A DNA stretch of 23,838 nt, from positions 1 through 23,838 of IMG/VR virus record IMGVR_UViG_3300047474_001057. One strand, written 5' to 3'. The stretch comes from a virus. The notes beneath the pieces are model-generated. The model was not told the DNA's origin and did no database searches. It saw only the letters and a list, made by a program, of their open reading frames with translations. Of the stretch, positions 15,462 through 22,842 are shown one piece after another. The position numbers and the translations under genes are program-made. Each line of letters starts with the position of its first letter. Position 1 is the stretch's first letter.

Positions 15462-15535
15462 TGGCTAGCCAGCACAGAATCGAACTGCAATTTTCGGTTT
15501 TGGAGACCGACGTAATACCATTATACCACTGACTA
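15462..15535 (-). tRNA. trnW: tRNA-Trp (anticodon CCA)
   Basis: A 74-nt cloverleaf with encoded 3' CCA. The acceptor stem TAGTCAG pairs with CTGGCTA (one G-T pair) with discriminator G. The anticodon stem TCGGT/ACCGA closes the 7-nt loop CTCCAAA, giving anticodon CCA. The T loop is TTCGATT. The D arm is short and AT-rich. Confidence 0.92.
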
Positions 15536-15541
15536 TTTGTT

Positions 15542-15617
15542 TGGCGCGCCTACAAGGACTCGAACCTTGAACACAAGTTTAGAAGACTCGGATGATATCC
15601 AGTTTCACCATAAGCGC
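15542..15617 (-). tRNA. trnR: tRNA-Arg (anticodon UCU)
   Basis: A 76-nt cloverleaf with encoded CCA. GCGCTTA pairs with TAGGCGC (two G-T pairs), discriminator G. The anticodon stem CGAGT/ACTTG (one G-T pair) closes loop CTTCTAA, giving anticodon TCT for AGA codons, which are common in these AT-rich genes. It is transcribed first, 6 bp before tRNA-Trp, from promoter f. Confidence 0.94.
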
Positions 15618-19330: not shown

Positions 19331-19359
19331 TTTACATTTCTCAAAATCTGTGATATAAT
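19331..19359 (+). promoter_or_regulatory. Orphan plus-strand early-type promoter
   Basis: Plus strand: -35 TTTACA (19331-19336), 17-bp spacer, -10 TATAAT (19354-19359) in TGTGATATAAT, with an A-rich stretch upstream. It matches the minus-strand family as well as any member, but no gene lies downstream on this strand. A transcript starting near 19366 would carry AACC-GGGGA-GGTT, a purine-rich GGGGAGG stretch and a 10-codon frame at 19398, then run antisense to the Sm-like gene and uvsW. Confidence 0.7.
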
Positions 19360-19394
19360 AATATAGTCAACCGGGGAGGTTAGAGGTATACTAA

Positions 19395-19796
19395 TTAATG
19401 TATAGTTTCAATTTCTTTATATTCTTCTGATGCTAGTTCAGCATCCATTTCTTCAGCAAGTTCATTCATTAATTCATCCGCTGATCTTAGTTTAGTTTTA
19501 GGCCGAGGTCTCATTCCATCCTTAGCCAGTTTAATATATTCTTCTTTAATATCTTCATCTATTTCTACATGATATATGATCTTACCTTGATGTAGCTTAA
19601 ACAATTTTTGAGAAGAGAACGCGAACCATGGTACAAAGTAAAAACCGCCGATCATTCCATAATTAATCTTAAACGGTCTTTCTATAATATAAGAACCAGA
19701 CTCTGTCTTCTCGCTCACAAGAGCGATAATCTCTTCCCCATTAAGTAGCTTAAATTGTCTTATGTTTAAAGAATTCATATTTTTATTTATATCCAT
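19395..19796 (-). CDS. Sm-like fold small protein 2 (unknown function)
   Basis: Second member of the family seen at 4052-4348. RQFKLLNGEEIIALVSEKTESGSYII matches the TSGEEIIG strand-turn-strand of the first, and YFVPWFAF matches its PWMPY. A helical, acidic C-terminal tail (ELMNELAEEMDAELASEE) is extra. Two starts are possible: ATG at 19796, one base after the uvsW stop, or ATG at 19776-19778, which fits the family better. The second coincides with the predicted +1 of a late octamer at 19784-19791, which lies in the first codons of the longer form. No ribosome binding site is clear for either. RNA binding would suit the fold but is not shown. Confidence 0.72.
   Translation of the reverse strand: MDINKNMNSLNIRQFKLLNGEEIIALVSEKTESGSYIIERPFKINYGMIGGFYFVPWFAFSSQKLFKLHQGKIIYHVEIDEDIKEEYIKLAKDGMRPRPKTKLRSADELMNELAEEMDAELASEEYKEIETIH
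19784..19791 (-). promoter_or_regulatory. Late-type octamer TATAAATA at the start of Sm-like gene 2
   Basis: Exact octamer on the minus strand. With T4 spacing the start site is 19778, the A of an in-frame ATG. It also forms part of the first codons of the longer gene model, so it could be coincidental. Confidence 0.4.
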
Positions 19797-19797
19797 A

Positions 19798-21297
19798 CTA
19801 TATGTTTATATCATAAACTTTAAATTTAAACCGCTCTTTTGAATATATTTTAATTCTTTCAGCTGCATGGTTTAAGGTGTAGTTTTTTGTGCCTTTCCAA
19901 TGTAAATCATCTGCAATATCGTATACCTTAGTATTTATATCATCTCCAGACAGTCTTAATCCACGGCCTATAGACTGAAGTACTCTGATTTGAGATTTAG
20001 ATGGACTCGCAAAAATTATGTTGTGAAGTCGTTTGATATTAATACCAGTTGAAAAAGTACCCAAAGAAGCAACGATAATTGCGTCGTTCTGTTCTTCGGT
20101 AATCGCTCTAATATTTTCTCTATCGTCAACTTTAGTTTCTCCGGAAACATAGAATAACTTCCTGTCTTTCTCTATCTTTTTACTTAAGATATCATGTAAT
20201 GGTTTACCATGTTTTTCTACATAGTTAAATAACACTAATGTATTTCCCTTTTGATCTAAAGCTAGATTACTAATAAATGTATTTCTTGGACCATACTTTA
20301 CAATAAAATCGATTTCTTCTTGATACTTAAACTTTGATACAGTTTTACAATACTCATCTTGATATTTTAACAGCAATATCGATATATCCATTTGAGCCAA
20401 AGCATTACTATCCATAAGATCTTTAGTGGTAGTAACCTTATATACTGGTCCAAATAATCCTTCTAATACTAACTGATGAGTTTGCGTACCGTCCAATGTT
20501 CCAGTAGTACCAATCTTAAATGGCGCATTAACGCATTTTTCTAGTATTGAAGTTAATGATTTAGCTTTAAAGTTATGAGCTTCATCACCTATTACCATAC
20601 CATATTCTGTAAACCAATCTCCACTAAATTTATGAATAGATTGCCATGTACTTATTATAACTCTTTGCGGTATGTTGATCTTATCTTTGCCAGAATATAT
20701 CCTATGGCATTCTTCATTAGCATTCCATAAATCATCAAGTTTAGAATAGTCATCAAAATCACTGTACATTTGTTCTACTAGGGAAGTTGTAGGGACAATG
20801 ATTAATACCTTACCTTCAAAATATTTAAGAAAATATCTTAATGCCATGTATATAATTAAACTCTTACCAGACGCTGTCGGGCTTAAAAGCAATCTCTTTC
20901 CATCTTTTATGGTGCGCGAGAGTGCATCGATTTGATAGTCCCTGGGTATTATACCTACTCCGTTCACGCTAGGGCCCAATTCGGTGATAAAGGCCTCTAA
21001 ATCAATATTTTCAGTGATATGACTGTCACTTAAACCATTGATATAGTGCTCTTTTATCTGATACCCTCTTTCCTCACAGAATTGTTCTAGATACTTGACA
21101 AGACCACAATATAAGGTTTTATCCCTCATATTGAATAATCTGATCTTTCCATCCCACATTCTGTTACGATATGCCGGCATAAACTTATATCCGGGTACGT
21201 AAAAGCAAAAATGCTCAGATAACTCTTGACCTGTGCTAGCTTCACATTCAATCTGTATAAGAGTTTCGTTTAATTTTGTATAAGTAATTACTTCCAT
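19798..21297 (-). CDS. uvsW: Recombination DNA-RNA helicase (T4 UvsW-like)
   Basis: Superfamily 2 helicase that unwinds branched DNA and R-loops; in T4 it shuts off origin replication and drives recombination-dependent replication. The protein is 499 aa. It matches T4 UvsW in the N-terminal domain (YRNRMWDGKIRLFN), motif I SPTASGKS at about 139-146, motif Ia IIVPTTSLVEQM, motif II DEAH at about 238-241, motif III-like TGTLDG, and motif VI QSIGRGLR. The ATG at 21295-21297 overlaps the oxygenase stop by 10 bp; a GTG at 21315 is open but less likely. In T4 uvsW is expressed late. Here it follows uvsY and the oxygenase, with an additional late octamer inside its 3' end at 19932-19939. Confidence 0.95.
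   Translation of the reverse strand: MEVITYTKLNETLIQIECEASTGQELSEHFCFYVPGYKFMPAYRNRMWDGKIRLFNMRDKTLYCGLVKYLEQFCEERGYQIKEHYINGLSDSHITENIDLEAFITELGPSVNGVGIIPRDYQIDALSRTIKDGKRLLLSPTASGKSLIIYMALRYFLKYFEGKVLIIVPTTSLVEQMYSDFDDYSKLDDLWNANEECHRIYSGKDKINIPQRVIISTWQSIHKFSGDWFTEYGMVIGDEAHNFKAKSLTSILEKCVNAPFKIGTTGTLDGTQTHQLVLEGLFGPVYKVTTTKDLMDSNALAQMDISILLLKYQDEYCKTVSKFKYQEEIDFIVKYGPRNTFISNLALDQKGNTLVLFNYVEKHGKPLHDILSKKIEKDRKLFYVSGETKVDDRENIRAITEEQNDAIIVASLGTFSTGINIKRLHNIIFASPSKSQIRVLQSIGRGLRLSGDDINTKVYDIADDLHWKGTKNYTLNHAAERIKIYSKERFKFKVYDINI
19932..19939 (-). promoter_or_regulatory. Late-type octamer TATAAATA inside uvsW 3' end
   Basis: Exact octamer on the minus strand, predicted start near 19926, about 130 nt before Sm-like gene 2. 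It may give late transcription of that gene, or be chance. Confidence 0.3.
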
Positions 21298-21797
21298 TGT
21301 GGTCCAACAACCCACCCTACGATAGATCTTCTATGCCCTTTTATTATAGGCGTAATCCTATGATATAAAATGGATGGAAATATTATAATAGTACCTTTAT
21401 CTCTAGAATAAGTCATATCGATGTTATTAGCATCTCTAAACTCAAAATTTCCACCTTCATATTCTTCTTTATCAGTTAACTGTAATATATATGTAAATTT
21501 TCTATGTAACTTTCTATTCCATAAAACATCTTGGTGCCAATCATATTTTCCACCAGGACTATATTTTAATAGCTTAGTTTCATTAATTTTATTAATATCG
21601 TAAACTAAATTTAAATTTTTTATAAACGAAAATACCTTTACATCTAACCAATTAAATGTACCGGTTATATCATATGTATTAACAACACGAGAATCTGAAG
21701 AATCATTTGTAGTACCTTCAACCCACCATTGATTATTGGGTTGTACAACATTAATTTTTGCTAATTCTTCTAAAGATAAAAAATCTTTATATACCAC
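21288..21797 (-). CDS. 2OG-Fe(II) oxygenase (prolyl-4-hydroxylase-like)
   Basis: Non-haem iron, 2-oxoglutarate-dependent dioxygenase of the P4H type. Counting from the GTG chosen here (169 aa): iron ligands His88 and Asp90 in YDWHQD, then the YILQLTDKEEYEGGNFEF strands, the distal iron ligand His146 in LYHRITP and the 2-oxoglutarate-binding Arg156/157 in GHRRSIVGW. The frame is open to a TTG at 21818, but GTG at 21795-21797 follows GGAG and reduces overlap with uvsY to 11 bp; the choice is uncertain. Such genes are frequent in marine T4-like phages. The substrate is unknown and could be a protein or modified nucleotide. It lies between uvsY and uvsW with overlaps on both sides. Confidence 0.88.
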   Translation of the reverse strand: MVYKDFLSLEELAKINVVQPNNQWWVEGTTNDSSDSRVVNTYDITGTFNWLDVKVFSFIKNLNLVYDINKINETKLLKYSPGGKYDWHQDVLWNRKLHRKFTYILQLTDKEEYEGGNFEFRDANNIDMTYSRDKGTIIIFPSILYHRITPIIKGHRRSIVGWVVGPQWK

Positions 21798-22834: not shown

Positions 22835-22842
22835 TATTTATA
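22835..22842 (-). promoter_or_regulatory. Late-type promoter (TATAAATA) for the tail-tube-like gene
   Basis: Exact late octamer on the minus strand, 21 bp after the T-run of the gene 23 terminator. The predicted start is 22829, about 64 nt before the ATG at 22765. The position between a terminator and a structural gene makes function likely. Confidence 0.75.

Follow-up and report, generated by a model that had tools for sequence, protein, structure and literature searches.

Genomic context of the orphan promoter

The stretch of DNA analysed here (the window) is an IMG/VR record of 23.8 kb from a T4-like marine myovirus, with a GC content of 33%. On its minus strand, the genes follow in the order gp23, gp19 (tail tube), uvsY, a 2OG-Fe(II) oxygenase, uvsW, an Sm-like gene, gp55, a 71-aa ORF, gp47 and gp46, the last two being SbcD- and SbcC-like, respectively. 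The uvsW helicase gene (19798–21315, minus strand; PHROG 16, E 2.5e-99) is followed by the Sm-like gene (19395–19796, minus strand; 133 aa; PHROG 527/471), the final gene of the uvsW operon. The AlphaFold model of the Sm-like protein (pLDDT 81) has an Sm fold, and its closest PDB entry, 3by7 (TM 0.88 by target), is described as resembling Sm/Lsm RNA-binding proteins in structure. The protein ends, after a variable acidic tail, in a near-invariant Thr-Ile-His (19395–19406), like a C-terminal docking peptide. Late-type TATAAATA boxes occur twice on the minus strand, at 22835–22842 before gp19 and at 19784–19791 within the initial codons of the Sm-like gene.

All long ORFs in this region are on the minus strand. 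Against them points a single early-type promoter, here called the orphan promoter (19331–19359, plus strand). It consists of a −35 box TTTACA (19331–19336), a 17-nt spacer ending in TGTGA, with an extended −10 TG at 19351–19352, and a −10 box TATAAT (19354–19359). The transcription start predicted from the sequence is G19366, the seventh base after the −10 box, and a G followed by a T recurs at this place in most of the sequences compared. This start lies 29 nt past the Sm-like stop codon, with transcription directed into the Sm-like gene, so that the promoter both opposes a gene and reads into that gene, as a cis-antisense promoter does. On one side it adjoins the gp55 promoter (19297–19269, minus strand), its divergent neighbour. 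On the other side it converges with an early-type promoter before uvsY (22289–22261, minus strand), across uvsY, the 2OG oxygenase, uvsW and the Sm-like gene.

A general sigma70 scan of the window gave no excess over chance (36 hits against 37), and therefore a stricter family pattern carries the case. This pattern, TTTAC[AT]-N14-TG-N-TA[TG]AAT, has nine exact matches in the window, compared with 0.005 expected under a first-order Markov model of the window. Eight of them are on the minus strand, each upstream of genes, and the ninth is the orphan, which shares all family features: TTTACA or TTTACT, the 17-nt spacer, and TG before TATAAT or TAGAAT. One of the minus-strand members (15666–15638) precedes a tandem pair of tRNA genes (15465–15617, minus strand). 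The initial annotation had described the orphan as a full-quality member of an early promoter family that opposes every neighbouring gene and is most similar to the MoxR promoter, and both points held: the MoxR promoter (12926–12898) shares with it CCTTTACATTT and TGTGATA, with 85% identity across about 50 nt. Judged by its sequence, the orphan is a genuine promoter of the early family.

Conservation in marine T4-like phages

The stretch upstream of gp55 was compared in three sets of IMG/VR gp55 relatives, namely 80 from the window's own group, 80 retrieved with a cyanophage query and 80 with a query from Pelagibacter phage HTVC008M. In the window's group, 79 of 80 loci have a promoter oriented like the orphan, its spacer being exactly 17 nt, and the remaining one (L017) has it farther from gp55, at the Sm-like stop. 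TTGACA-16/17-TATAAT-like promoters occupy the equivalent place in the cyanophage and HTVC008M sets. Among isolates, orphan-type promoters are present in C48C1, Mosig, HTVC008M, ACG-2014a, ACG-2014b, P-SSM4, P-HM1 and S-H9-1, and a weaker one in Melnitz.

For scoring, we asked for a promoter with at least 10 of 12 matches and a start within 75 nt of the Sm-like stop codon. This threshold was passed by 226 of the 233 scorable IMG/VR loci with an Sm-like gene. Of 583 other gene ends, taken from four complete genomes, only 39 carry such a promoter. The median distance from start to stop codon is 29 nt in two groups and 20 nt in the cyanophage group. Four of the seven failing loci miss on the distance filter or the stop assignment alone. 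Upon inspection of the sequences, a promoter is visible in L141, L147, L150 and L157, is uncertain in L161, and appears to be absent at the Sm-like gene end in L171 and L172. Stricter scans return few antisense promoters of this kind per genome, and in Mosig and HTVC008M the one at uvsW ranks with the strongest of them. A second strong antisense promoter in HTVC008M (L262), at 92439, lies 24 nt from a gene end, and its start region contains GGGCGGCGATTAAGCCGCCC, a dyad that is possibly part of a terminator.

The promoter follows the uvsW operon, not gp55

Loci with rearranged gene orders reveal to which neighbour the promoter belongs. In 12 loci, the Sm-like gene and gp55 are split by an additional gene, and the promoter remains 26–41 nt from the Sm-like stop, at a distance of 240–980 bp from gp55. 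In eight loci (L197, L210, L213, L214, L229, L231, L238 and L247), the interval from the orphan promoter to gp55 contains a gene for an 81-aa hydrophobic protein (MKIRFYKRLDG...). Seven further loci (L344, L347, L349, L352, L355, L356 and L364), some from a third group retrieved by means of uvsW, have an added gene whose reading frame overlaps the stop codon of the Sm-like one, and the promoter sits right after the added gene. In five of these (L344, L349, L355, L356 and L364), the operon-extending gene encodes a protein of about 211 aa (MSFLVHPL..., EYLYD) with no assigned function. In L201, neither an upstream Sm-like gene nor the orphan promoter was found.

Whichever gene closes the uvsW operon, the promoter is found behind it, and we therefore assign it to the 3′ end of that operon. 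The back-to-back arrangement with the gp55 promoter, pointed out in the initial annotation, is real as a position, yet in the loci compared it is incidental: a functional pairing was rejected as unsupported, because the orphan departs from gp55 and tracks the uvsW operon, and we see no evolutionary link between the two promoters. This linkage also sets an antisense or insulating role apart from a role as divergent partner of gp55. Within one phage, the bases beside the −10 box of the orphan match those of the gp55 promoter in 43 of 80 cases (shuffled mean 21), as if one polymerase serves both, although this agreement could partly come from relatedness. In cyanophage loci (L092, L098 and others), the −35 boxes of the two promoters interleave (TTGACAnnnTTGTCAA), which indicates that the promoters overlap and may exclude each other.

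A conserved start region

The first bases of the predicted transcript form a dyad, AACC-GGGGA-GGTT (19369–19381, plus strand), with arms at 19369–19372 and 19378–19381 and the block GGGGAGG at 19373–19379. It is followed by the purine-rich motif AGAGGTATAC (19382–19391, plus strand), conserved in the window's group, with AGAGG and CAGAGG as variants after the dyad. Conservation is strong to about +20 to +30 and then drops: in the window and cyanophage groups, the first 20–30 nt hold about 0.5–1.25 bits per position, compared with 0.1–0.4 further down.

The short dyad exceeds shuffled sequences in all three groups (Wilcoxon p 3e-8, 2e-4 and 4e-11, with relatedness ignored). Its arms covary, as AACC/GGTT, ATCC/GGAT, GTCC/GGAC and TGGC/GCCA in the window's group, and as AACGG/CCGTT, CCGG/CCGG, GGTCT/AGACC and AGGC/GCCT in the HTVC008M group. 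As a guide to the strand on which the dyad acts, T.G mismatches in the arms outnumber those of the A.C type, but independent events are few. The hairpin and the GGGGAGG block noticed by the initial annotation are thus both present, but the hairpin of the window phage is weak alone (−4.0 kcal/mol, z −0.3; mean z of folding energy −0.7), and selection on the dyad is visible only through comparison. Furthermore, the dyad falls within the predicted RNA in the window's group, whereas in the cyanophage and HTVC008M groups it is centred on the predicted start, a poor fit to a simple RNA hairpin. The G-rich start is lost in Mosig-like phages.

An operator common to other promoters may be conceivable in cyanophages, where leaders within a small-gene cluster of P-SSM4 (L365; 51160 and 52490) have an AACC-TGT-GGTT start-region sequence nearly identical to that of the orphan. 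In HTVC008M and Mosig, the start-region sequence of the orphan is single-copy, which speaks against such an operator.

Searches of Rfam in gathering and E-value modes gave no match for the start region, and no conserved intrinsic terminator was present in the first 500 nt of the predicted antisense transcript, where a plus-strand terminator had been proposed as something to look for. No conserved ORF follows the orphan promoter either. An ATG complementary to a His codon of the Sm-like gene seemed at first sight a conserved start codon of a coding leader. This candidate was rejected, as its spacing is not constant and relatives do not preserve the reading frame; the ATG appears conserved because the Thr-Ile-His end of the Sm-like protein is.

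Transcription of uvsW in the sense direction

Among 62 relatives with enough sequence, 41 have an early-type promoter upstream of uvsW, and 15 have a late-type TATAAATA within 400 nt upstream of it, mostly within 50 nt. In the window, no late-type TATAAATA was found in these 400 nt. Given the early-type promoter before uvsY, uvsW is not kept off through a missing early promoter, and an antisense brake would need to act against the transcript from the uvsY promoter. T4 expresses UvsW from a late promoter, and the R-loops at its origins are unwound by this protein (PMC3016281), which is a reason for keeping UvsW low early in infection.

Discussion

The sequences show that the promoter is present, that it is conserved and linked to the operon end, and that its start region is conserved as well. 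The main new result is that, across the loci compared, the promoter lies where the uvsW operon ends and is directed back into that operon. Antisense transcription of the Sm-like gene and uvsW had been proposed in the initial annotation, and a promoter that keeps to the uvsW operon and not to gp55 matches what an antisense role predicts. Marine T4-like phages probably make an early antisense RNA at the uvsW operon end. In the window, the predicted transcript would cover 19366–19796 (plus strand), spanning at least the Sm-like gene, its predicted sense target, and it may continue into uvsW, the target deeper in.

As best explanation, to which we give a probability of about one half, we propose that a genuine early promoter behind the last gene of the uvsW operon yields an antisense RNA that dampens the uvsW/Sm-like operon until late in infection. 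From the sequences we infer that RNA is produced, how long it is, when it is made and that it represses. The orphan promoter would fire early with the unmodified host polymerase, and the RNA would begin about 30 nt past the last stop codon of the operon and cross the Sm-like gene in the direction of uvsW. Head-on collision of the two transcription events, together with pairing of the RNAs, would then lower the early expression of both genes, against the early transcript from the uvsY promoter. Once the polymerase switches to late promoters, the orphan would fall silent and the brake would be lifted. Some observations speak against such a brake. In the window, uvsW is apparently behind an early promoter, and its early expression may be normal. 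In addition, antisense pairing alone leaves the conservation of the first 25 nt unexplained.

The same position would also suit an insulator, in which head-on collision stops run-on from the uvsW operon into the downstream genes gp55, gp47 and gp46, with the RNA as a by-product. The promoter is always at the operon end, where run-on would start, and shifts with it, and an intrinsic terminator for the sense operon was not found in the gap of the window. A terminator would be the simpler device, though, and the conserved start region would be left unexplained, so that we regard insulation as unlikely. A short trans-acting RNA, the alternative named in the initial annotation, would carry the dyad at its 5′ end, followed by the purine-rich motif, and would perhaps work with the Sm-like protein. 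Conservation of the first 20–30 nt in the window and cyanophage groups, a dyad above shuffles in three groups and the Sm fold of the neighbouring protein argue for it. This alternative came out weaker than the antisense reading and is unlikely in our view: conservation fades at about 25–30 nt, short of an RNA body, a conserved terminator within 500 nt and an Rfam family are both lacking, and in the cyanophage and HTVC008M-like groups the dyad straddles the predicted start, leaving one arm outside the transcript. A more speculative idea, with a low probability, is that marine T4-like phages share an antisense early promoter at this operon end whose RNA, carrying a 5′ dyad that changes fast but stays paired, acts jointly with the Sm-fold protein from the opposite strand. 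RNA and chaperone would then control one another and set the timing of UvsW.

Antisense RNA could also have the opposite effect and shield the uvsW/Sm mRNA from RNase E, raising expression. Such mRNA protection, which counts against a brake, was proposed for the antisense RNA of another cyanophage (cited in the passages found of PMC10976474). With an early promoter here and a late UvsW in T4, we consider a protective role doubtful. A start of replication, with the transcript priming an R-loop origin, is very unlikely. The models would be the early promoter at T4 oriE, which is apparently early-promoter dependent, and the middle promoter at oriF, which combines a promoter with an A+T-rich unwinding element (PMC3016281). 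A purine-rich start would presumably favour an RNA–DNA hybrid. The window is A+T-rich throughout, so that the unwinding element of a T4-type origin would not stand out in it. Mosig-like phages lack the G-rich start, and GC skew is unchanged at the site in the complete genomes of HTVC008M, C48C1, P-SSM4 and Mosig, which gives an origin no support; a skew change marks only some T4 origins. Hardly credible is a promoter for an unannotated small protein. AGAGG could be a ribosome-binding site, with an ATG about 11 nt later in the window, yet the ORF from this ATG has 10 aa, several relatives have an immediate stop (ATGTAA), the spacing to the ATG ranges from about 8 to 24 nt, and the longest ORF that begins near the promoter has a median length of 27, 0 and 23 aa, by group.

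In phage lambda, antisense transcription from paQ and the OOP RNA delays or lowers a regulator, as proposed here for the orphan. The lambda systems act in the lysis–lysogeny switch with their own regulators, whereas we know of no lambda-type regulator in the orphan system. Antisense transcripts are already known in phages, cyanophages included. A close example in the passages found is cfrI at psbA of cyanophage S-PM2 (Millard 2010, cited in PMC5931967), an antisense RNA of a marine T4-like phage that, like the one predicted for the orphan, arises on the 3′ side of the gene it targets. It differs in concerning another gene, in S-PM2, with expression shown, while the orphan is a sequence-predicted antisense promoter present in nearly all relatives. 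Antisense transcription at T4 gene 32 (Belin 1987, as cited in the passages of PMC3014915) likewise concerns a T4-like phage and a different gene. T4 oriE (PMC3016281) resembles the proposed orphan role in that an early promoter serves something besides mRNA; the orphan differs by its site at the uvsW operon end, without a skew change. Antisense transcription is also mentioned for Kyanoviridae in the passages found of PMC10976474. Within the passages found, from a search that lacked the most relevant transcriptome papers, the orphan promoter is not reported.

Regulation in abundant ocean phages has been described mainly via early and late promoters. An antisense promoter that is kept at one operon end in phages of cyanobacteria, Pelagibacter and others, including Kyanoviridae and their relatives, and that moves with this operon, suggests that antisense transcription is under selection at this site. 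It would bear on the timing of UvsW, the protein which in T4 shuts down origin replication.
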